From NCBI GenBank assembly GCA_002793075.1, contig PFPO01000046.1, positions 1 through 42,290 on the forward strand: a stretch of DNA of 42,290 nucleotides, in the 5' to 3' direction. How positions within the stretch are numbered: the stretch's first letter is position 1; each line of letters begins with the position of its first letter. The notes under the pieces were generated by a model. That model ran no database searches, had not been told where the DNA came from, and was given only the letters and a program-made list of their open reading frames with translations. The stretch is from Candidatus Komeilibacteria bacterium CG_4_10_14_0_2_um_filter_37_10. GTDB lineage: Bacteria > Patescibacteriota > Patescibacteriia > UBA1558. The position numbers were made by a program, and so were the translations under genes. Positions 142 to 33,870 of this stretch are shown here, one piece after another.

Positions 142-170
142 ATATTACACCGATCAAAGATTTTTGTCAA
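142..170 (-). promoter_or_regulatory. Sigma70-type promoter for the leftward gene at 46
   Basis: On the minus strand a perfect -35 TTGACA (170-165) is followed by a 17-base spacer and -10 TAATAT (147-142). Transcription would start near 135, giving a leader of about 90 bases before the ATG at 46. The palindromic repeat at 182-212 lies 11 bases upstream of the -35. Confidence 0.7.
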
Positions 171-181
171 GTCTTGGAGTT

Positions 182-212
182 CAACACCGGGAGTTGGCAA
201 CTCCTGGTGTTG
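182..212. promoter_or_regulatory. Two tandem 15-bp palindromes, operator-like
   Basis: CAACACCGGGAGTTG (182-196) and CAACTCCTGGTGTTG (198-212) each fit the palindrome CAACNCCNGGNGTTG and are spaced 16 bp start to start. The same motif with the same 16-bp spacing occurs at 8399-8429, and a single copy occurs at 21970. All three places lie next to a -35 box. The pair could also fold as one 15-bp hairpin, so an RNA or repeat-element role is possible. Confidence 0.5.
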
Positions 213-224
213 AATCTGCTGTCA

Positions 225-262
225 GATAGGGCATTGGGAATCGGGGGATCAGGTTAAGAGGG
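225..262. repeat. GGGAATCGG/GATCAGG minisatellite-like fragment
   Basis: The stretch contains GGGAATCGGGGGATCAGG. Similar text recurs at 560-610 and 33333-33362 between genes, and in-frame inside the giant gene at 24561-31100 (25940-26090, 26400-26570, 28520-28640). Confidence 0.4.
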
Positions 263-283
263 TGAAAGTTGAGTGCGTGTATT

Positions 284-530
284 AGTCGTTTGCCCGCCAA
301 AGGCGGGTCCGCCTCCTCGCCACGCTAGCGCTTTGGCGCAGCGGGCGGCGGAAGCTAACGCTCTGTGCTCTGGATTGCTTCACCCGCCTTTGGCGGGATT
401 CGCAATGACAGACGGCGGTGGATGTAGGAAACAATATTACGAATAAAAGAACAATACACGCTCAGACAAGCTGAGAGACTTCTCTCCCGCCTCTCGCGAG
501 AGGCGGGATCGAAGTGACAAATGGGTAATG
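284..530. repeat. Composite palindromic intergenic repeat, copy A
   Basis: No gene is seen here. Two modules are joined. The first (about 372-415), read on the minus strand, begins GTCATTGCGAATCCCGCC and ends GAAGCAATCC, with a GGCGGG-type hairpin between them. The second (416-530) contains GGTGGATGTAGGAAAC, the small hairpin CTCAGACAAGCTGAG, a CCCGCC...GGCGGG palindrome and GAAGTGACAAATGGG. Related copies lie at about 5936, 10547, 23698 and 33380. Both modules resemble the widespread GTCATTGCGA and GTCACTTCGA dispersed palindromes of bacterial genomes (recognised from memory, not searched). Confidence 0.7.
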
Positions 531-642
531 GCACGATAAGACATGCGGGTTTGAAGCTAGCGCTGGAATCAGGGCATAAGATAATCAGGGGATCAGGAAA
601 ACGGGTTAAAGAGAGGGCGTGACAAAAACGGGATGCGGATTG

Positions 643-5935: not shown

Positions 5936-6411
5936 TAGGTAATGACAGACGTTTGTTGGGCTTAGCGCTCGGGCTCTGGCTACACAAAGCCTTTGTCACT
6001 TCGACGATCCAAGCCCCCCGTCCAGCCTTTCGCGAAAAGCTGGACAAGCGAAGGGCTGGAGAGGAGAAGTCTCTCGCGCATGCGAGAAAATGTTGTGTGC
6101 TTTCCCCGCCCCGTTTTACGGAGCGAGGTAGGTCACCAGCGATTGTTTGTAGTTGTCTGCATTGTACTGAATAACTAACGCTCACCACTCGCATCCTGCC
6201 TAGTGGCAGTCGCGAGAGATTTCTCCCCAGCCTTTCGCGAAAGGCTGGATCGAAATGATTAGACGGAACAGGCAAAAGGAAAAGGAGAAAAATATTATTA
6301 AATAACAATTGACACTGAATCGTCGAAGTGACAAATGGGACGTGGTTCATCCGCTTTGTCAAACGGGGCGGATTATCGTCTCTCGGTATATAGTTTTATA
6401 TTGTTCGACGA
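5936..6411. repeat. Composite palindromic intergenic repeat, copy B
   Basis: This gap between convergent genes holds repeat modules and no credible gene. It contains TTTGTCACTTCGACGATCC with nested AGCCTTTCGCGAAA palindromes, a degenerate middle (about 6080-6200), a second AGCCTTTCGCGAAAGGCT hairpin (about 6228-6250), and GAAGTGACAAATGGG near 6326. Its right end, read on the minus strand, is ATCGTCGAACAATATAAAAC...GAGACGATAATCCGCC. This starts at the T-tract of the efp terminator and matches copy D. Confidence 0.7.
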
Positions 6412-6450
6412 TAAAAAAACAGAGTTAGTATAAATAACCCTGCTTTTTTT
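6412..6450 (-). terminator. Terminator of the rpsF-ssb-rpsR-efp operon (bidirectional)
   Basis: On the minus strand CAGGGTTA and TAACTCTG (6442-6435 and 6427-6420) pair with one G-U, followed by T7. The plus strand also ends in seven T (6444-6450), so it can stop both directions. Confidence 0.7.
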
Positions 6451-8393: not shown

Positions 8394-8398
8394 TGACT

Positions 8399-8429
8399 CA
8401 ACTCCCGGTGTTGGCAACTCCCGGTGTTG
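8399..8429. promoter_or_regulatory. Two tandem CAACTCCCGGTGTTG palindromes between divergent promoters
   Basis: Two identical 15-bp copies (8399-8413 and 8415-8429) are separated by one G, the same 16-bp spacing as at 182-212. They lie between the leftward rpsF promoter and the rightward pilM promoter (-35 at 8444), so one factor could control both. Confidence 0.55.
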
Positions 8430-8443
8430 AAAGTCCCATATTA

Positions 8444-10511: not shown

Positions 10512-10547
10512 AACAGCTCAGCGTTGGATAAACTTGAGCTGTTTTTT
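10512..10547 (+). terminator. Intrinsic terminator of the pilM operon
   Basis: AACAGCTCA (10512-10520) pairs with TGAGCTGTT (10535-10543), followed by T6. The sequence ATCGTCGAACAAT of repeat copy C begins exactly at the end of the T-run. Confidence 0.8.
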
Positions 10548-11045
10548 ATCGTCGAACAATACTCTGGTTTTCACCAGAGTGACAGTGATAAAAGTGAGAC
10601 GATAACAAGCGAATGTTGAGCCTGGTGCTCTGTGCTCTAGCCACCCAAAGCCTCAGTCATTTCGATCCAGCCTTTCGCGAAAGGCTGGGGAGAAATCCCT
10701 CGCGACTGCTACCCCGCTTCCGCTGAAGTTCCAGCGAGGCGAGCAGGCAGGATGCGAGTAATAAAAGTTAATACCCGCCCTATACGATGTACACTACTAC
10801 AAAAAATGATCGGCGATTTACTCCTTCAAAGAAAGCGATCCACTCCGCCGCTCGCTGCGCAAGCGCTAGCGTAGCGAGTCGTCGGTAGATGTAGGAAACG
10901 ATATTACTAAAGAAAGAACGTTGACCGCTCAGACAAGCTGAGAGACTCCTCTTCTCCAGCCCTTCGCTTGTCCAGCTTTTCGCGAAAGGCTGGACGGGGA
11001 GCTTGGATCGTCGAAGTGACAAATGGGTAGTGGCGTAGCTACCAG
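10547..11045. repeat. Composite palindromic intergenic repeat, copy C
   Basis: The gap between the pilin-like gene and pilD has no credible gene. It begins with ATCGTCGAACAAT at the terminator and closes that module with GAGACGATAA (10608-10617); a CTCTGG...CCAGAG hairpin is inserted inside it. Next come an AGCCTTTCGCGAAAGGCT hairpin, a GCGCAAGCGCTAGCG-rich stretch (about 10855-10880), and the core module 10881-11033 with GATGTAGGAAACG, CTCAGACAAGCTGAG and GAAGTGACAAATGGG. Confidence 0.7.
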
Positions 11046-18931: not shown

Positions 18932-19108
18932 CCCGCCTCTCGCGAGAAGCGGTATTCCTTTTAAAACATTCACTTTTATTCATCAAAGTACCTTTGATTC
19001 AGACCAAGTGAATGTTTTTATTTAATCATTTATAACAGCGGGATTCCTTTTAAAAATACACTTAACCTCATTCAGCCTTTGGCTGGATTCGGCCCAAGTG
19101 TATTTTTG
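18932..19108 (+). repeat. Tandem pair of similar compound hairpins downstream of tRNA-Asp
   Basis: Two units share GGxATTCCTTTTAAAA followed by a long stem with an inner hairpin, then ATTTATAAC. Unit 1: AAAACATTCACTT (18963-18975) pairs with AAGTGAATGTTTT (19006-19018), with inner stem ATCAAAG/CTTTGAT. Unit 2: AAAAATACACTT (19052-19063) pairs with AAGTGTATTTTT (19096-19107), with inner stem CAGCC/GGCTG. The outer stems differ but change on both sides. Each ends in T-runs, so they may act as terminators. A CCGCCTCTCGCGAGAAGCGG palindrome (18933-18952) sits just after the tRNA. No gene is seen from 18923 to 19239. Confidence 0.65.
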
Positions 19109-19139
19109 TTTGATTATTTATAACGGCTGGTTTGTTGTA

Positions 19140-19166
19140 TTGACAAATCACTCGCATTATTATAAT
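19140..19166 (+). promoter_or_regulatory. Candidate promoter of the pepD-like gene
   Basis: TTGACA (19140-19145) and TATAAT (19161-19166) are both consensus but only 15 bases apart, shorter than the 17 found at other promoters in this window. TAATGT at a 17-base spacing is an alternative -10. Confidence 0.5.
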
Positions 19167-19239
19167 GTCTTCTCAAAGTAGAATAGTTTTGTTCATTTAC
19201 AATTAATCATATTTCATTACAATATATAGGAGTAATACC

Positions 19240-21990: not shown

Positions 21991-22019
21991 TTGACAAATT
22001 TCGTTAAATAGTGTACAAT
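21991..22019 (+). promoter_or_regulatory. Promoter of the SPFH-like gene
   Basis: TTGACA (21991-21996), a 17-base spacer and TACAAT (22014-22019). Transcription starts about 45 bases before ATG 22071. The open frame extends back to 22011, but that would place the start inside the promoter. Confidence 0.75.
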
Positions 22020-22070
22020 ACAATATTAATAAGTTTTTTGAAAATTAAATATAAATTAAAGGAGCGATCT

Positions 22071-22919
22071 ATGTTATTGGCAATAATGATTCTTGTTGTG
22101 GTTATTCTGGTTTCTATTTGGCTAGACAAATCCACTGTTACTATGACTGAGGGTCAGGCCTTAGTTATTAGTAAAAATGATAGTTATGAGACTGTGGAAT
22201 TTTATTCTGAAGATGATAGAATGAAGTTTCATCTCTATCCGGTTTATAAAATGCATCGATACGATATTGTTGGTGCGCATGAAATAATATTCGAAACTAT
22301 TGATTTACCAGAAATATATACGGCCAAGTCAACGACTCTTAAAAGGAACATGACTTTAACTGGCGCTAAGGTATCATTGGTATTTGTTGTTAATGAAAGC
22401 GATGCTATTTATAATGCCGAAGTTACCAAAAAATTACGCCGTATGTTTTTGCAAGGATTGATTCCTGACGTCGGTACAGTTTATCCCACCGCCACGGACT
22501 TGATTAAGCTGAAAAAAATAATTTTCTCAGTAGTTGATAAATGCGTGCGTCAAGTTTCTGCCGGTTCTGGTTTTGAAGATTTGATTGATCCAGCTAATAT
22601 TGACAAAATCGGTGTAGATATTCTTCAGGCTATTCGTAATAGTGATTTAATTCAGCGGTTAGGATTGGTTTTGGCTAGTGTTGTTTGGGCAAGACCTGAC
22701 TTGCCAGATGAATATTCCAAAGCATTATCGAGAGCTGCGGAAGCAGAAATAAACGCCGTTGCTAAGAAAGCTGAAGCTGACGCCTTAAAGGGTAATGAAG
22801 CAGCGGGACTAGTAATTGCTTTACAAACATCTGCTGATAAAGGAAATCCACTTTATATTGGTGACGGCGTCTTGCATATGACGGGTCTATCACAAAAAAT
22901 GAAAAAGAAAGAAAATTAG
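22071..22919 (+). CDS. SPFH (band 7)-like membrane-anchored protein
   Basis: From ATG 22071 (AAAGGAGCG ribosome site) the product has 282 residues: one N-terminal membrane anchor (1-19), a beta-rich region resembling the SPFH domain (about 25-115), a helical part, and an Ala/Glu/Lys-rich coiled segment (SRAAEAEINAVAKKAEADALKGNEAAG) like the C-terminal helix of stomatin/prohibitin-type proteins. Such proteins assemble into membrane rings that organise proteases and lipids. The assignment rests on overall pattern, not on a diagnostic motif. The membrane protein 11 bases downstream is a likely partner, in the way NfeD-like proteins pair with SPFH proteins, although it does not itself look like NfeD. 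Confidence 0.6.
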   Translation: MLLAIMILVVVILVSIWLDKSTVTMTEGQALVISKNDSYETVEFYSEDDRMKFHLYPVYKMHRYDIVGAHEIIFETIDLPEIYTAKSTTLKRNMTLTGAKVSLVFVVNESDAIYNAEVTKKLRRMFLQGLIPDVGTVYPTATDLIKLKKIIFSVVDKCVRQVSAGSGFEDLIDPANIDKIGVDILQAIRNSDLIQRLGLVLASVVWARPDLPDEYSKALSRAAEAEINAVAKKAEADALKGNEAAGLVIALQTSADKGNPLYIGDGVLHMTGLSQKMKKKEN

Positions 22920-23658: not shown

Positions 23659-23697
23659 ACCCTGTTGTTTCATAATGAAATGACAGGGTGTTTTTTT
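23659..23697 (+). terminator. Intrinsic terminator of the SPFH-like operon
   Basis: ACCCTGT (23659-23665) pairs with ACAGGGT (23683-23689), with an inner TTTCAT/ATGAAA stem, followed by T7. Repeat copy D begins with ATCGTCGAACAAT at the end of the T-run. Confidence 0.8.
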
Positions 23698-24015
23698 ATC
23701 GTCGAACAATAAAAATATATACCAGGAGACGATAATCCGCCCTTGGCGGGGCGGATCCTCGCCTACCTGCCAGGCAGGTAGGCAATGACAGGCAGGGTTT
23801 GAGTTAGCGCTGGGCGCTGGATTGCTTCTGGATTGCTTCACTCGCCTTTAGCGAGTTCGCAATGACAAACGTCGGTGGATGTAGGAGGCACTATTACTAA
23901 AGAAAGAACGATAGGCGCTCAGACAAGCTGAGAGACTTCTCCTCTCCAGCCCTTCGTGAAGGGCTTGGATCGTCGAAGTGACAAATGGGATGTGGCTTGC
24001 CCCGCCAGAGGCGGT
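23698..24015. repeat. Composite palindromic intergenic repeat, copy D
   Basis: The first module is ATCGTCGAACAATA...GAGACGATAATCCGCC, nearly identical to the inverted end of copy B. A CTGCCAGGCAGGTAGGC palindrome, a GTCATTGCGAA-type module (about 23827-23872) and the core module 23871-23994 follow. The remaining 24016-24221 is AT-rich with no gene; only a TATAAT at 24198-24203 stands out, 18 bases before ATG 24222. Confidence 0.7.
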
Positions 24016-24221
24016 GATTTACCCAGTTAAAAACGGTGGTTTACCTTGTTATTAAATTAAGTATTATTAATATCGTGCGAAATTTGAGTTAGCACTGATT
24101 ACTTAGTTATTATTTTTTGTAACGATGTATAGTTTAGTCATTATTGGTATTAGATTTTTTTAGTTTTATTAATGACAAAATTGTGTTAAAATATCACTAT
24201 AATAAATCGTAATTTTTTTCT

Positions 24222-24560: not shown

Positions 24561-27500
24561 ATGCTATTAGGCAAAGAAGAAGTTTCTCCATATTCAAGTA
24601 GTTCAGTTGAGGTTAAAAAACAGACCGACGCAGAGAAAGAGCAGATAAAGAAAATAGCTGCTGATTTTTTATTAGCCACTGGAAATAGTAAATTATCGAT
24701 TGAGCAGAAAGCTTGGCTCGAGCAAGAAGTGGCCGGCGAGCAGAAAAAATATTTAGAGCAACTGGCGACAATAGATCAGGATATTGATTTATTGTCCCAA
24801 CAAGAAGCTGGTGGCTATGGATACAGTGAGTATAGTAGTGAGGAAGCTAAGAATATTATTAATTCATCAGTCCCACAGATAGTTGGCGCTTTTCAGCTCA
24901 AGGTTGAGGAGCTAGCTAGTACTGTGCATAATTTACAAAAACAGGAAGTAGCTTATCAAGAAAGAGGTGCATTGACGCATTTAGAAAGAGATCCCCAATA
25001 CCAAAGTTATTATCATTATTATTCACAAGAATTGCAGAAAGATCCGAAAAAATTTTTACAATCTGATAAGTTTAATTTTACTACCCAAAATTGGGACGGT
25101 TGGAGTTTACCCGACGATCTATTGCGCCAGGGAGTTAGCAATGTGCTAGTGAGTAAACAACGAGAATTAGAGCGGGGTATTAGTAATGGACAAGTAACAA
25201 AAGCAACAGAAAAATTAGCCATCCTGCAAGCAGTTAATGGCTGGCTGGATAGTTTAAAGCAATTAGCAGAGCGTCAAGAAATACTTAATGCTCCTGAGCG
25301 AAACAACGAAAGTTTAAAAACAATTGATCAAGACTGGCTACGTTTAGAGCAAAAATATCAGGAAACTAAGGAGTATGTGCATGATAAAGTGCTGGACCCA
25401 GAATATTTGCGGGAATTTGATGACGCCTTAGTTGAAGAGTATCAAATGGTTATCAGGAAGAAAGAAGAGAAGGTTAAAAAAATAAACAAATCTTGGCAAC
25501 AAGAAGCCAAAGAAATTCTTAACTCAACCCAGTTGCAAGAGCGTCAGCAGAAGTTAGTAACGGATGTCCAGTTATTATTTGCCGATTTTGCAGAATTTCT
25601 CGAAATACAAAGCAAGGCAGTTGATAGTGCTACGAAAAATATTGAACAAGGAAAATTAGCTCAAGCCTTTTCTGAACAAGTTCAGAGTAGTAAAACAGTA
25701 GACTCAATGATTTCTTGTTTGGAGTTTATTAATGACGAAGCTTTAAAGAACAAAGAGAAAATTATTCAAAAAATTAAATTTTTATTTGCTCCCGAACGTA
25801 TGATCGCTGAAGAGCTCGCACAAGTGGGTGAGGAGAAGTTACTGCGAGGTATTCCTAATGACTTTGGTATTCGTGAGCAGGTTTTGGATCTATTAAAAAA
25901 GAAAATTGGTTCTGGTGAAATTAAAGAAGGGGAAGAGCTGGTTATCGGGGAAGCGGGGAATCAGGAAATCAGGGAATCAGGTCATCAGGATATCGGGAAG
26001 TCAGAGGATCAGGAAATCAGGGAAACGGGTAATCAGGAAAGTAGTACGCTAGTGAATCAGGAAATCGAGGCAGCTGGTGATACAGCAGACAAGACGCAAA
26101 ATATGGAGCAGGTAATTGATCGAGAAGACAAAAATTATCAAGTATTAAGTTTAGTAATTGAGCAAGCAAAAATATTGATTGCCGAGAATCAAAAAAAATA
26201 TAGCAGTAGTGATTATTTTAACAAGAAAGATTTGCTAGCTAAGTTAGAAGCTATGAGTATGTCCAGAAAGCAGGCAGAGTGGGCTCTTAATCAGTTAAAG
26301 AGGCAAAGCATACTGGATGTGCAAGAGGTAGTAGGCAATAAGCCAGAGCAAAAATTTTATCGTTGGCGGTTAACTGGTCAGGAGTTAGTTAAACCCGTTA
26401 GAGAATCAGGGAGCCAGGAAATTGGGGAAACGGGAAATCAGGAAATCGGGAAATTAGAGGATCAAAATGTTGGGGAATCGGGAAAGCGGGAAAATAGTAC
26501 GCCAGAGAATCAGGAAATTGGGGTATCAGGAAAGCAGGAGACCAGGGAGTCTGGCAATCAGAGTAGTGAAGTGCCAGATAAAAATAACTCGGCCTTAGAA
26601 GTTGTGAAACCAGAACAACAAAATACTGCAGAAATACCGCCGGTTGCAGCAGTGGAATATCAAAAGTTTTTAGATTATCCGGAAGTGCAAGCCTTTTTGG
26701 AAAAGTTGCAATGGTCAGATTTAAGTGATCCAGTAAAATTAAGAAAAGAGCTGGAAACTGTTTTTAGTAATGTCAAATTATATGCGGAAACAACCAATGC
26801 GGAAAAATTCTCTGCTGGCTTTATTGATAAGTATTTAGAAAATATATATAGTCGAACCACTCTCTATTTACAACAAAAAGTGGCGGAACAAAAAAATCAA
26901 TCATCCAGTTTATCCAAATTTTTTAGTCGGGAAGGTAAAAAGTTTGGTTTAGGTGTGACTGGTGGCGCTGTTTATGCCAGTTGTCGTTTAGCTATTGCCG
27001 GTGCAGTTAGTGTCTTTACTACCGTGACTACCCCAATTTCATTAGTTATTGGCGGTCTAGCCGGCGGCGTTAACGCTGTAATTAACGATGCCACAAAAAA
27101 GATTTGGCACAAAGATCAGGCTCAGCAAATTTCTACTTTACTCAAAAAAGTAAAAAATAAAAATCAAGAATGGCCAGAGTTAAAACAGCAAATCACGGAT
27201 ACGCTTGGTGAATTATATTTACATGATTGTCGTTGGACAGAAGATTTAAGTAAAGTTTATGAAATAGACGAGGACTATCAGAGGTATTTAAATGAGCGGT
27301 TAAAAAATGGTGAGGTTAATTTGAAACCAGAGCAGTATGGTGTTCGTATTAGTGAAAAAGGCGACGAGCAATTATACGGCCTAGCGGCCATTAATATTGC
27401 CAAATTAGCACAATCATCTTGGCGCATAAATTTGGGTTATCAACAAGACAAAGATAGTCAAGTGAGAAAACAAAAAGATGCTCAAGAAAGACAAGATTTA

Positions 27501-30500
27501 TTAAAAACAATGATTGCCACCGGTGAATTGGAAGTTTATTTTACTTATCAGCTGGAGAAAACGATTAAGGAATTGAAAGTTAAAATCGGTACTGTACCAC
27601 CAGAGCAACAAGTTGATTTGGAAAAACAAATTGTACGTGACGCGCAATTAATGGTAGAAAATCAGATGAATGTTTTATTGGGCGATGTCATGACGCAAGA
27701 AAAGATAACAGGTTCTACGGATGGTGAGAAAAGTATTTTTCGGGACAGTTATTTAGCAAAGTTGTGGCAAGATGGTGAAAAATATCAGTCACTGGGTATG
27801 GTTAAGAAATTTGCTGGTGGTTTTGCCAGTGGTGCCGTTGCTGGCATGGCTTATTCCAATATTTATGCCGGTAGTATTTATGGTGCCTTGATGAAATTTA
27901 GAAGTACCATGCGCTCGGAACTATCACAGATGACCAGGCAGGAAATAATTAAAACTGCTGGCGAATTATACCAGAAGATAAATGGTGCTATTGGGAATAT
28001 TGAAAATTATAATCAGGAAGAAGTTAAAAATATTATTACTGAAACCAAAGCCCGTATCAAGCTACCAGACATCAAAGAGCACGAACGTATCTTATTAGAA
28101 AATGGTATTGATAAATTGCGTACTAAATTTGCGCGCTCGCAAGCACTAGGGCAAATAACACAAGAAACAACACTGAGCTTAGAGGCCATGGCCAAGAGTA
28201 TGGTTGGTGGCAAAGAAGAGCAAGACAAAATAGCTCGGGATTTATTAAAGAGAAATAAAAAAGCCGGCAACATTGTTCAGTTGTGTCAGAAATTTGGTCA
28301 ACTCTCAGCGGAAACTAAATTCAAATTGCTCGGTAAGGCATTAGTTGAGGGTATGAAGGGTGGCGCAGCCTTTGCTTTGGGCGGTGGTTTGGTTAGCTAT
28401 TTTGGTGGTGCTGTGGGTATTATGCCAGAAACCGGATTTGATCAGGTGGTGAACAGAACTATCAACGGCGCGTTTCTAAATTTATCAATAGTTGGCGGTC
28501 AACACAGTGGAAATGTTGAAAAGTCAGAGCATCAGGTTGCCGGGGAACCAGGAAATCAGGAGAGCGGGGAAGCAGGAGATCAGGGTATTGGGAAACCAGA
28601 GCGTCAGGAGATCGGAAAATCAGAAGATCAGGTTACTGGTGAATCAGCACCAAAGCATCAAGAAATGACTTTGGCGATTGGAAAAGACGGTAATTATCAA
28701 CACGGCGATCAGGGTTTTAGGCATTTGATGGTAGAGGCAGCACCGAAAGAAATATATCAAGATGGCGTAGTAGATGCTAAAGACGCTGCATATTTAGAGT
28801 ATATGTTGGCGGTAACCAGAGAATTAGCGCAGGGACACCCAGTAGCTGGCTTTGACCCGCAGGCGGTACAAGAATTTGTGACTTTTGATGGTAAAGAAAT
28901 ACATATTAGTGATTATCAAAAATTTGAAACTTTTATTCAAGGTGATTTATTTCATCGTGCGGAGAATGTTATTACCGACCGCAGCGATGTTTTTGCTTAT
29001 GTTGATGACACCAGTCAAAAGGTTTGGCGGAGTGCTTTTGCAGAAAAAGGTGCGAATATTGTGGTCGAGGACTTTTCTCAGGATGCCAGAGTTATTGCTG
29101 CTGAACAACGAGTTGATCAGCAAAATGAAGTAGTCCGAGATTATCAGCAGCACTTTAATCAAATACCACACCAAGGCAACATTGAGGTTGTGTCAGGATC
29201 GGGTAGTACGGAAGTTAAATTAGTAAATGGTCAGGAAGCTTATAATTTTAAAATAGAACACGGTGTGGTGACGGCTTTTAATGGACAAGAGTTACCCAGC
29301 TCCGTTAGTCGCACCGAAGATTTGGTGCAAGCTGTTAATCATAATTTATTGATTACTCATCAAATACCTGAGAATAAGATCGTAAGCTATCAGCAAGTAG
29401 CAGAAAAACTGGGAGTTATTAACCCCGGTCACGCTTTTGTTGATCCGGGCGATGCTAAATTATTACAGTACATTGAGGGAACAACGGCTTTCAAATCAGA
29501 ACAAACAGCACCCTATCAGCAAGCGGAAATTAGAGATTTGGCTAAGGATATTATTGTCACGGACGGTGATAAAGTATTGCAATACGTGGATAATACTACC
29601 AATCATTTCTCGGATCCAAAAACAGTAGCCGCTTTTTCGTTGGCGGAGCTGCGAGAGTTTGGCTCGGAGCACTCGGCAGAATTAACAAGCGCTGTTCGTG
29701 ATGGTGTGGTTGATCAAAATTTAACCCACGCACAATTGTTATTAAATTTACATCAGCAAAGCAGTGGTCAGTTATTAACCAACTCCATTGTCGATAGCAA
29801 TCCAGAGTCATTGCAATTGATGTTACATAATCAGGAAATAAATTTAAATCAAGCAGACAAAATTCAGCAACTAGAAAATAAAGTTACCAGTAGTTTGGAG
29901 TTGTCGGCTGATCAAGTATCGCAACAAGCTCTCTATGATTTACAAAAAGCCCATATTACCGTTGAGGTGCCAGCTAGTAATGAGATAAAGATTAATTTAC
30001 CTAGCGATCTAAACGCCCATGATTTACTGCCGAATGGCGGTGTATTAATCATGGAAAAAGTTGGTGGTGAATTGCAACTGCATCTGGAAACCAGCAGTAA
30101 TAAGTGGCTAGACTCAGAAACAAGTACATTTGTGCCAAAAGATTTTTGGCAGCAAGCGGATGAACAAACAATGATTAATCACTTTCACAATTTGGTAGGT
30201 AAAGAGATTATTCAGAATAAAATGGCCAGTGAATTAGAATTAGCCCGACAAGAACAAGGTATTTTTAGTATTTTGACTATTGATCTCGACGCGCGCTATG
30301 ATCGGGGATTTAATAAATTAAGCGCCGGCGATGTTTTAATAAGTCAAGAAAATTTTGTTCAAGGCATGAATGAATTCGGCCGGGCCAATAGTTTGCCAGT
30401 CACGGGCCAAGAAGATAATTTAATAGATCAGTATCAAATTATTCATAAGTATTTAACAGGGGGAAAAACAGAGTTGATTAACGAGAATATGAATAATTAT

Positions 30501-31100
30501 TTAACGCATCATCAGCCACAGCTCAGTGAGGATGTTAGGCATTATTTGGGTCGGATGGTTGGTGAGGTGTCGTCAGGCGTATTGCCAGAGTTAAAAAGTA
30601 ATGAACCAGTTTCAGAATTACCAAACCTGAAAGATATTATACCCACCGGCGAGTTACCAGATTTGCACCAAACCAATGATGTGAAAATAGGGGAGTTGCC
30701 GTTACTCAAAGAAGATGGTAGCGGTCAAAAAGAGGAAAAAACTACCACCATTAATGATGCTGACAAAAAAGCGACTATTCACGAGAGTAAAGAGGTGCAA
30801 GGTAATACGATTATTGAACGCTCATCAGTTGAGGCACAAATGAATGGTGCGGTTATTAGTAAATATTATAACGAAGTGCGGCACGACGTGCTCAGCAAAG
30901 AAATTGACTCTTTGGATGATTGGCGAGATAAATTTTCGGAAATCAAAAAAGAATATACGGGCAATGGTGAACTAACGCCCATGGAAAATAAATCTTTGGA
31001 ATTATCTTTCAAGAGTATTGAAAAAGGAGGTTCATTTGTCGAAGATAAAATCAGAATGGATGTAACAGCGATGTTGTCGCGGTGGAATAAAAAAGAGTAA
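24561..31100 (+). CDS. Giant 2179-residue protein with hydrophobic segments and QEIG-type repeats
   Basis: Family not recognised. The order is: Gln/Glu/Lys-rich coiled-coil region (1-450); octapeptide repeats of the form EI(R/G)E(S/T)GNQ (about 460-505); a winged-helix-like stretch (about 520-610); a second repeat block (about 613-670); a Gly/Ala-rich hydrophobic segment (about 792-850); coiled coil; further hydrophobic Gly-rich segments (about 1085-1115 and 1263-1290); a third repeat block (about 1320-1360); and a long soluble C-terminus with repeated FVDPGDAKLLQYI / VTDGDKVLQYVDNTT-type segments. There is no N-terminal signal peptide, so most of it may be cytoplasmic or anchored by the internal segments. 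It probably forms a structural or surface-associated complex; function unknown. A bidirectional terminator follows. Confidence 0.75.
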   Translation: MLLGKEEVSPYSSSSVEVKKQTDAEKEQIKKIAADFLLATGNSKLSIEQKAWLEQEVAGEQKKYLEQLATIDQDIDLLSQQEAGGYGYSEYSSEEAKNIINSSVPQIVGAFQLKVEELASTVHNLQKQEVAYQERGALTHLERDPQYQSYYHYYSQELQKDPKKFLQSDKFNFTTQNWDGWSLPDDLLRQGVSNVLVSKQRELERGISNGQVTKATEKLAILQAVNGWLDSLKQLAERQEILNAPERNNESLKTIDQDWLRLEQKYQETKEYVHDKVLDPEYLREFDDALVEEYQMVIRKKEEKVKKINKSWQQEAKEILNSTQLQERQQKLVTDVQLLFADFAEFLEIQSKAVDSATKNIEQGKLAQAFSEQVQSSKTVDSMISCLEFINDEALKNKEKIIQKIKFLFAPERMIAEELAQVGEEKLLRGIPNDFGIREQVLDLLKKKIGSGEIKEGEELVIGEAGNQEIRESGHQDIGKSEDQEIRETGNQESSTLVNQEIEAAGDTADKTQNMEQVIDREDKNYQVLSLVIEQAKILIAENQKKYSSSDYFNKKDLLAKLEAMSMSRKQAEWALNQLKRQSILDVQEVVGNKPEQKFYRWRLTGQELVKPVRESGSQEIGETGNQEIGKLEDQNVGESGKRENSTPENQEIGVSGKQETRESGNQSSEVPDKNNSALEVVKPEQQNTAEIPPVAAVEYQKFLDYPEVQAFLEKLQWSDLSDPVKLRKELETVFSNVKLYAETTNAEKFSAGFIDKYLENIYSRTTLYLQQKVAEQKNQSSSLSKFFSREGKKFGLGVTGGAVYASCRLAIAGAVSVFTTVTTPISLVIGGLAGGVNAVINDATKKIWHKDQAQQISTLLKKVKNKNQEWPELKQQITDTLGELYLHDCRWTEDLSKVYEIDEDYQRYLNERLKNGEVNLKPEQYGVRISEKGDEQLYGLAAINIAKLAQSSWRINLGYQQDKDSQVRKQKDAQERQDLLKTMIATGELEVYFTYQLEKTIKELKVKIGTVPPEQQVDLEKQIVRDAQLMVENQMNVLLGDVMTQEKITGSTDGEKSIFRDSYLAKLWQDGEKYQSLGMVKKFAGGFASGAVAGMAYSNIYAGSIYGALMKFRSTMRSELSQMTRQEIIKTAGELYQKINGAIGNIENYNQEEVKNIITETKARIKLPDIKEHERILLENGIDKLRTKFARSQALGQITQETTLSLEAMAKSMVGGKEEQDKIARDLLKRNKKAGNIVQLCQKFGQLSAETKFKLLGKALVEGMKGGAAFALGGGLVSYFGGAVGIMPETGFDQVVNRTINGAFLNLSIVGGQHSGNVEKSEHQVAGEPGNQESGEAGDQGIGKPERQEIGKSEDQVTGESAPKHQEMTLAIGKDGNYQHGDQGFRHLMVEAAPKEIYQDGVVDAKDAAYLEYMLAVTRELAQGHPVAGFDPQAVQEFVTFDGKEIHISDYQKFETFIQGDLFHRAENVITDRSDVFAYVDDTSQKVWRSAFAEKGANIVVEDFSQDARVIAAEQRVDQQNEVVRDYQQHFNQIPHQGNIEVVSGSGSTEVKLVNGQEAYNFKIEHGVVTAFNGQELPSSVSRTEDLVQAVNHNLLITHQIPENKIVSYQQVAEKLGVINPGHAFVDPGDAKLLQYIEGTTAFKSEQTAPYQQAEIRDLAKDIIVTDGDKVLQYVDNTTNHFSDPKTVAAFSLAELREFGSEHSAELTSAVRDGVVDQNLTHAQLLLNLHQQSSGQLLTNSIVDSNPESLQLMLHNQEINLNQADKIQQLENKVTSSLELSADQVSQQALYDLQKAHITVEVPASNEIKINLPSDLNAHDLLPNGGVLIMEKVGGELQLHLETSSNKWLDSETSTFVPKDFWQQADEQTMINHFHNLVGKEIIQNKMASELELARQEQGIFSILTIDLDARYDRGFNKLSAGDVLISQENFVQGMNEFGRANSLPVTGQEDNLIDQYQIIHKYLTGGKTELINENMNNYLTHHQPQLSEDVRHYLGRMVGEVSSGVLPELKSNEPVSELPNLKDIIPTGELPDLHQTNDVKIGELPLLKEDGSGQKEEKTTTINDADKKATIHESKEVQGNTIIERSSVEAQMNGAVISKYYNEVRHDVLSKEIDSLDDWRDKFSEIKKEYTGNGELTPMENKSLELSFKSIEKGGSFVEDKIRMDVTAMLSRWNKKE
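25940..26090 (+). repeat. 24-bp coding minisatellite, block 1 (blocks 2 and 3 at 26400-26570 and 28520-28640)
   Basis: In-frame 24-bp units such as GAAATCAGGGAATCAGG plus seven more bases encode EIRESGHQ-type octapeptides. The same GGGAATC/GATCAGG wording appears between genes at 225-262, 560-610 and 33333-33362. Confidence 0.6.
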
Positions 31101-32382: not shown

Positions 32383-32780
32383 TGGTGGAGATGGTGGGTA
32401 GTGCGCCCACGTGCGATTAATAGAGAATTTCTAGCGCTACAATCATAGTTTGTTAGTTTGTTTCTCGCAAAGGAAATTAACAAACAACTTATACCTTTGT
32501 AAGATCCTCAATTGTCTTAGTTCAGCCTCCTTGAGGAAAGAAGGATGAAAGCAACTCATCTTCATGACGCTTCCTAACCCCAACAATGAGCGATCAGGGG
32601 AAACGGTCGCGGCCAGTATTAGGCAGCAACGAAAGCCGGTTGCATCAAGTTAAAAGCTGATTTAACCTTAGCCAAGATATTGTTGGCATTTATATTTGTT
32701 GGCTATTTATTTAGGTGTGTTAGACCAAACACCGATTGCTCCGGAAATTCGATATTTAACCGGCGAATTAAAACATCCCC
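32383..32780 (-). ncRNA. ssrA: Transfer-messenger RNA (tmRNA)
   Basis: The minus strand begins GGGGATG (32780) and ends CATCTCC-A-CCA (32383), forming a 7-bp acceptor stem with one G-U. GAATTTC near the 5' end (32750-32744) pairs with GAAATTC near the 3' end (32431-32425) as the P2 helix. The tag frame opens with ANNILAKVK and ends AFVAA before TAA, about 22 residues. Length 398 bases. The T arm is GTGGG-CGCACTA-CCCAC: the loop lacks the usual TTCRANT. It lies directly after smpB on the same strand, the protein it works with to rescue stalled ribosomes. Confidence 0.93.
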
Positions 32781-33332: not shown

Positions 33333-33870
33333 GACCGGGTGATCAGGGAATCGGGTTAAGGATATGGTGACAGGAGGGGTTTGCCCGCCAAAGGCGGGTC
33401 TGCCTTCTCACCACGCTAGCGCTTTGGCGCAGCGGGTGGCGGATCGTTGTTCGCTCGCAATGACAGACGGGGTTTGAGTTAGTGCTGGGCTCTGGATACT
33501 GGATCAAGTCCGGTGTGACAGTGGGGTGAGTATTGTAATGGACATTTGAGCTAGCGCTGACAAACAAAGCATTGTCTTTCTGTCCGCCTTCTCACCACGC
33601 TAGCGCTTTGGCGCAGCGGGTGGCTGAAGCTAACGCTTGGGCTCTGGATTGCTTCACCCGCCTTTAGCGGGATTCGCAATGACAGACGACGGTGGATGTA
33701 GGAAACGACATTACTAAAGAAAGAACGTTAACCGCTCAGACAAGCTGAGAGACTTCTCTCCAGCCTTTCGCTTGTCCAGCCTTTCGCGAAAGGCTGGACG
33801 GAGGGCTGGATCGAAGTGACAAAAGGGTAGTGGACAGGCAATGACAGGCGTTGATTGAGGGGGAAACAGG
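33333..33870. repeat. Composite palindromic intergenic repeat, copy E
   Basis: The divergent gap between smpB and argS holds no credible gene. It opens with GTGATCAGGGAATCGGGTTA (minisatellite-like). Two CCACGCTAGCGCTTTGGCGC modules follow (about 33411-33445 and 33595-33630), then a GTCATTGCGAA-type module (33647-33689) and the core 33690-33833 with GATGTAGGAAACG, CTCAGACAAGCTGAG, AGCCTTTCGCGAAAGGCT and GAAGTGACAAAAGGG. Confidence 0.7.

Follow-up and report, generated by a model that had tools for sequence, protein, structure and literature searches.

The question raised by this locus is whether a short repeat that begins exactly where transcription terminators end has chosen that site. In the window, by which we mean the whole stretch of 42,290 nucleotides analysed, the initial annotation had seen such a repeat at the end of the T-run of three terminators, those of efp, of a pilin-like gene and of an SPFH operon, and had proposed either a mobile, non-coding element that prefers terminators or a functional RNA 3' extension. 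We confirm the observation, which is stronger than first given: it holds in three of three cases in the window and in five of five in the assembly (G000; 977,573 bases in 97 contigs, 95.5% complete). Whether most genomic copies lie away from terminators had been set beforehand as the refuting test; all five follow directly after the T-run of a hairpin terminator, in a single orientation. The features of the window are collected in Table 1.

Table 1. Terminators, copies of the element and adjoining repeat islands in the window (CM, covariance model).
Feature	Position	Strand	Description
efp terminator	6413..6444	-	hairpin about 6418-6444, T7 run 6413-6419
Element behind efp	6373..6414	-	42 bp, TTATCGTCGAACAAT...GAGACGATAA; CM score 66.1 bits
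Mosaic island, other palindromic repeats	5983..6372	-	starts past right end of efp copy
Pilin-like gene terminator	10512..10547	+	hairpin 10512-10543, T6 run 10542-10547
Element behind pilin-like gene	10546..10605	+	60 bp; ends conserved, interior is a hairpin module
Mosaic repeat island	10606..11036	+	past right end of pilin-gene copy
SPFH operon terminator	23659..23697	+	hairpin 23659-23689, T7 run 23691-23697
Element behind SPFH operon	23696..23735	+	40 bp; CM score 59.1 bits
Mosaic repeat island	23736..24020	+	past right end of SPFH copy

The sequence ATCGTCGAACAAT occurs exactly five times in the 978-kb assembly, against no occurrence of the reversed control pattern. Three of these exact copies are in the window (6400-6412 on the minus strand, 10548-10560 and 23698-23710 on the plus strand), and the other two are on contigs C21 and C35; at the pilin-like gene the start had originally been read one base early, at 10547, while site and orientation stand. 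With up to three mismatches the counts (30 forward, 30 reverse) equal those of the reversed control (31 and 34), so that only the exact copies stand out, and degenerate further copies were rejected. The full unit, TTATCGTCGAACAAT...GAGACGATAA, is present in all five copies and is larger than previously described, with lengths of 42 bp behind efp and on C21 and C35, 60 bp behind the pilin-like gene and 40 bp behind the SPFH operon. It is bounded in every copy by a perfect terminal inverted repeat (TIR) of 8 bp, TTATCGTC...GACGATAA, whose two arms are separated by 24-44 nt. The pattern TTATCGTCN{10,60}GACGATAA, which is palindromic and thus counts each copy once per strand, is matched by all five copies in the assembly and has no match in the control.

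The ends of the element are conserved and its middle is variable. The initial 16 bases are invariant among the five copies, the motif GAACAAT is conserved inside the left end, and the right end is GAGACGATAA throughout, including the three window copies for which this closing sequence had been reported. In one copy the middle is non-homologous; the interior of the pilin-gene copy is formed by a CTCTGG-TTTT-CACCAGAG hairpin, to which a module of the mosaic islands is related. TA flanks the element on both sides; this TA could belong to the TIR or reflect a target duplication. In a covariance model built from the five copies, these score 50.8-67.6 bits, three of the same units on the opposite strand 17.3-17.9 bits, and the best match outside the five units 15.8 bits (306-kb sample); further copies by this route were rejected, the scores below the top being the other strand of known units, or noise. 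Like miniature inverted-repeat elements (MITEs), the five copies are dispersed, are bounded by terminal inverted repeats and lack coding capacity. A longer, autonomous element with the same ends was not found in the 95.5%-complete assembly, where the five left ends all close at 40-60 bp. There is no Rfam match at gathering level over the element in the window or in locus L165, and the rli40 match over the C35 copy, seen when the five loci were searched at E up to 1, is sub-threshold (18.2 bits against 100).

The T-runs upstream of the five copies are 6-7 nt long, and the 45 nt upstream fold with a minimum free energy of -12.1 to -20.8 kcal/mol. A strict terminator finder returned 52 sites in a 298-kb sample, including all four copies that the sample contains; the fifth copy, outside this sample, was folded separately and has its upstream hairpin. 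The C35 copy lay beyond one extracted stretch and was read from locus L036. Of 997 T5-9A sites in the same 298 kb, 125 have a hairpin upstream, a group that includes all four copies. When only intergenic T5-10A sites were considered, in a 275-kb sample with 29,627 intergenic bases, 39 of 160 had an upstream hairpin; the four copies of that sample belong to the 39, leaving 35 of 156 without them. The probability of five random intergenic, strand-correct placements is p~1e-16. Once a T-run followed by A is granted, the probability of five hairpin sites out of five is about 6e-4 to 9e-4, because only 39/160 of the intergenic T5-10A sites (35/156 without the element) have a hairpin.

The genes upstream of the copies are unrelated to one another: efp, for which three Pfam domains confirm the earlier label, the pilin-like gene, likewise confirmed (Pfam T2SSG), the SPFH operon, a tiny ORF and an unnamed ORF. 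The SPFH gene itself (22011-22919) scores 23.2 bits, just below the Pfam cut-off of 23.6, and no Pfam match was obtained for the last gene of the operon, the one in front of the terminator. For four copies an ORF stop codon stands 42-59 nt upstream. The C21 copy has no long ORF upstream but only one of 16 codons, read from the sequence; in locus L035 (1645-1595, minus strand) this ORF reads MKLYFGNNNNNNNNSC and has a terminator behind it, and at its start it resembles RNA-binding proteins. A promoter for the downstream gene was rejected, since a close downstream gene exists at the C21 copy only (tRNA-Asn); at the other copies the nearest same-strand ORF of at least 90 codons is more than 280 nt off, except for a TTG-started frame in the efp island.

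That the terminator stems differ, as noted before, is correct in general, with the exception that the stems at the pilin-like gene and on C35 have their basal 8 bp, AACAGCTC/GAGCTGTT, in common. In addition, TG precedes the T-run at four of the five element sites as compared with 5 of 61 other hairpin + T6-8A sites, a bias that was noticed post hoc and may mean either that such targets are preferred or that the repeat extends further to the left. Taken together, the shared basal stem and the TG bias suggest that the unit may extend into the terminator, which would weaken the description of the terminators as unrelated. The efp terminator also resembles the hairpins in front of both Y1 transposase genes and of a gene that we label, by assumption, ComF-like. 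These hairpins, CAGGGTTAT...TGTTTTTTTAT, directly precede the start codon of the three genes (T7ATG) and are found at about 1903 of L174 (minus), about 1428 of L175 (plus), about 3369 of L163 (minus) and 6442 of the window (minus), the last being the efp terminator itself; possibly they are terminators or attenuators that overlap the start codon.

A survey of 301 hairpin + T-run sites gave some second match, at E up to 0.05, for 98 of them; judged by eye, most of these matches are short or coding, and the few true repeats behind a hairpin and T-run (for example a tRNA-side family and an island module of L166/L170) carry the hairpin along with them. The terminator repeat is the sole sequence with 11-mers behind more than two hairpin + T-run sites in the 298-kb sample of G000 (4 of 298 sites), and no such 11-mer was found in samples of three other genomes, G001 (129 kb), G002 (161 kb) and G010 (200 kb). 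Lone 8-bp inverted repeats directly behind a hairpin and T-run do occur in these samples: one other in G000, two in G002, one in G001 and two in G010.

Several other repeats were observed along the way. Intergenic islands made of many palindromic modules, for example CCAGCCTTTCGCGAAAGGCTGG, GGATCGTCGAAGTGACAAATGGG and GGATTGCTTC...CGCAATGACA, are also present at window positions 170-620 and 33370-33860 and in loci L170, L171, L172 and L173; matches to one mosaic island are confined to seven contigs. A repeat family with hairpins AAAAATACACTTGG...AAGTGTATTTTTAAAAGGAAT, partly beside tRNA genes, lies at window 18990-19180 (minus), L156 1-260 (minus), L160 3860-4330 and L162 9180-9450 (minus); at gathering level Rfam recognizes nothing but tRNA there. 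Runs with a period of 8 bases (ATCAGGAA-like) lie in window 25936-28640, inside an ORF of 2179 aa (24561-31100), and similar units recur at 568-605. A tmRNA gene lies at 32383-32780 on the minus strand (Rfam RF00023, 107 bits).

Beyond this genome the element was sought at several distances. Its model, run over 144 genomes of the class, returned the five copies and then a tail of 31 matches at no more than 26.6 bits. The TIR pattern is present in 4 of 379 genomes of the phylum including G000, the other three having one match each, none behind a T-run, and the reversed control pattern matches five genomes; the left motif alone occurs once in G039, without the right end. Named genomes gave no match to the full motif and four loose look-alikes, with interiors of 9-14 bases and two of them nearly identical in sequence, to a pattern that itself demanded a T-run. 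In viral contigs there was no match to TTTTATCGTCGAACAAT and there were six to ATCGTCGAACAATATA, of which not one follows a T-run of at least five; similar patterns gave at least 101 matches in 80 viral stretches, and among the matches listed two are behind a T-run of at least five and none has a hairpin. Plasmids and phages yielded no match with the efp copy as query. The named-genome, viral, plasmid and phage collections may exclude this genome and very near ones, and we judge the similar patterns in viral, named and phylum genomes to be look-alikes. Behind efp, the repeat is absent within 130 nt in all 27 relatives of the order that were read, out of 31 with efp (L190, L196 and two other matches were left out), their flanks being too diverged to align. 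One of the relatives, L193, has T7-ATCATCAACAAAT behind the efp hairpin without the inverted end, which we take as a chance look-alike.

These properties can be compared with those of known systems. Bacterial MITEs such as NEMIS, RUP and ERIC are likewise short and non-coding, with terminal inverted repeats and a location near gene ends (PMC3733652). They are 70-300 bp long with TIRs of 15-30 bp, whereas the present repeat has 40-60 bp and 8 bp; it also differs in sitting behind terminators in one orientation. The literature searched holds no report of a MITE or REP choosing terminators. To our knowledge few mobile elements choose transcription terminators at all, group IIC introns being the case known to us. 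The latter insert at intrinsic terminators (PMC4424553). The repeat is similar in that its five positions are all directly behind intrinsic terminators, its insertion being presumed from this placement, but it is far too short. Its ends are, as we take it, not those of an intron, and Rfam gives no match to a group II intron, whether in the window, in another 262 kb of loci from this genome or in the five repeat loci; a group IIC intron was rejected, as no intron RNA was found and the ends are wrong.

Among the REPs, both the CGTC- and the GTAG-tagged types are described in PMC3733652. The former resemble the repeat as short palindromic intergenic sequences with CGTC, for which, according to that source, no dedicated transposase is known; in the same source they are recognized by a CCA tail and by a short stem-loop that carries an unpaired CGTC tag at one end. 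Here CGTC is instead paired in the TIR, there is neither a loop of 4-5 bases nor a CCA tail, and there are five copies; a CGTC REP was rejected because the tag is paired inside the inverted repeat. The initial annotation had suggested looking for a Y1 (RAYT) transposase of the kind associated with GTAG REPs, and the genome does have two Y1 genes, the second at 22.9 bits, just under the Pfam cut-off of 23, both beside REP-like palindromes. One gene adjoins palindromes of a CCAACCC type (contig C35) and the other has those of the AACACCGGGAGTTG family beside and inside it (contig C55). The terminator repeat differs from these palindromes, lacks the GTAG tag and flanks neither gene; the suggested link thus finds no support, and a GTAG/RAYT REP was rejected since the palindromes beside both Y1 genes belong to other families. 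The two genes with their palindromes (L175 1459-2052 and L174 1399-1872) represent two REP/RAYT-like systems within one small genome, and AACACCGGGAGTTG palindromes also occur at window 181-214 and 8398-8431.

Integron attC sites have conserved ends and a variable middle and lie at the 3' end of a gene in the orientation of the gene, with motifs GTTRRRY/RYYYAAC. The repeat shares the first set of features, but it reads GTTCGAC, a misfit to these motifs, and its genes are dispersed. No integron integrase was found, because the only tyrosine recombinase match in the genome is Xer-like; an attC site was rejected on both counts, integrase and boxes.

The reading that we favour, with middling confidence, is that of a miniature, non-autonomous element of 40-60 bp with an 8-bp TIR and a fixed-orientation preference for a hairpin followed by a T-run. 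The mobile, terminator-preferring non-coding element originally proposed is in this form the best-supported reading, although we infer the insertion of the copies from the arrangement of the sequence. The copies would have been inserted by an enzyme acting in trans, which would join the left end to the 3' side of the hairpin and T-run; such joining would resemble the terminator preference of group IIC introns, though the element is no such intron. It would be the hairpin that counts, and not the T-run alone. Insertion behind a terminator would be tolerated because transcription has already ended there, and additional palindromic repeats might then gather on the free right side, as is seen after four of the five copies. 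Candidates for the enzyme are the host Xer recombinase, a transposase that is lost or of another kind, and a Y1 transposase working away from its own palindromes.

Part of the placement pattern could be produced by selection against insertion elsewhere, and a reading that we consider unlikely, though worth serious attention, goes further in this direction: a loose T-rich or TA target would have received many insertions, and selection in a compact genome would have spared those behind terminators with no recognition of terminators at all. DNA outside ORFs of at least 100 aa is indeed only about 11% of the 275-kb sample, and a T-run followed by AT is present at 38 of 61 hairpin + T6-8A sites that lack the element, so that a TTAT target is often available at hairpin sites. 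The single orientation of all five copies is difficult to reconcile with mere survival, as is the small fraction of intergenic T5-10A sites with hairpins, from which the p-value of about 6e-4 to 9e-4 derives. It is quite improbable, in our estimate, that the repeat is simply the edge of the mosaic islands, spread by segmental duplication or gene conversion instead of inserting itself. An island follows four of the five copies, three copies share TCCGCC past their right end, three are on one contig, and on C35 a second, truncated copy follows in tandem; but no island stands behind the C21 copy, the repeat was not found in the other mosaic islands inspected, and on the left side the homology runs out at the T-run or immediately ahead of it, the terminators being different. 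Least probable is a functional 3' element, that is, a binding site for a protein or an RNA hairpin that selection maintains after terminators, for instance as a roadblock to read-through or a bidirectional signal. Fixed position and orientation, conserved ends and hairpin potential would suit such a role. The RNA 3' extension proposed earlier receives little support, since transcripts are expected to end at the T-run, before the repeat begins, and since the strand of the repeat folds weakly in four of the five copies (z -1.5 to -2.8, as compared with -4.1 for the pilin-gene copy); there is no covariation to test because the 8-bp stem never varies. Any functional role is further at odds with the presence of the repeat at only 4 of the 39 intergenic T5-10A sites that have a hairpin in the 275-kb sample, with the unrelated upstream genes and with its absence from the relatives read.

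An Xer attachment site appears improbable to us as well. According to this hypothesis the repeat is dif-like, with one good arm, a longer spacer and a degenerate second arm, and is spread or used via the single Xer-like recombinase of the host, a protein of 310 aa and the one PF00589 match in the genome. A 28-bp dif site is described in PMC3025954, and some insertion sequences target dif-like sites in fixed orientation (PMC10132070); the repeat may be analogous to such Xer-exploiting mobile elements. In G000 we recognized a putative site, TGGCGTCGTATAA-GATATA-TTGTGCGACGCCA (C73:35516-35547, locus L235), called dif-like from its 11-6-11 layout alone. Its arms are nearly palindromic (GCGTCGTATAA/GCGTCGCACAA), as are those of the dif-like sites of other genera of the class (L214, L218, L224, L233). 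A pattern built from three weak model matches and the element was applied to 35 genomes of the order; besides the G000 site it detected a similar one in G002 and only loose matches in the other five matching genomes. The left ends of the efp, C21 and C35 copies (CGTCGAACAATATA) are identical to the half-site CGTCGCACAATATA at 13 of 14 positions and those of the pilin-gene and SPFH copies at 11 of 12; one arm of the element is identical to the dif-like arm at 9 of 11. Element and dif-like site both hold CGTC in their outer 8-bp inverted repeat, and the element model caught dif-like sites in three other genera, among 19 of its 31 weak matches (19.6-21.4 bits). On the other hand, out of 20,000 dinucleotide shuffles the score was attained by 130 for efp, 128 for C21, 62 for C35, 117 for the pilin-gene copy and 795 for SPFH. 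Near-matching 14-mers number six in 298 kb, two being copies of the element and the rest lying at two unrelated places, while 20 shuffled dif-like sites gave 0-6 near-matches. Taking about two such places in 298 kb as background, we compute p ~2e-4 per 42-bp element, before possible comparisons are counted. Moreover the right arm has no match, the spacer, if the element is read as dif, is 12-32 bp instead of 6, the five copies are at terminators and none at dif, and the dif-like pattern was found in no viral contig. A connection of Xer sites with terminators is not known to us. The match of the left end to the genome's own dif-like half-site is a lead, suggestive only. A variant that unites it with the favoured element is in our opinion decidedly doubtful: a dif-mimicking miniature element whose left end copies the host dif arm, and which Xer would move into hairpin and T-run targets, perhaps by acting on the folded single strand of the element.

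If the resemblance to dif is real, the element would be linked with the one tyrosine recombinase that the genome was found to encode, and if such mimicry is true, terminators would be the integration platform of an Xer-dependent element. As for the terminator-choosing miniature element itself, a unit of 42 bp in a genome of ~1 Mb would, if true, represent a second, minimal way, after that of group IIC introns, to occupy the safest site that a compact genome offers, and an element that targets terminators could explain how islands of palindromic repeats begin there.
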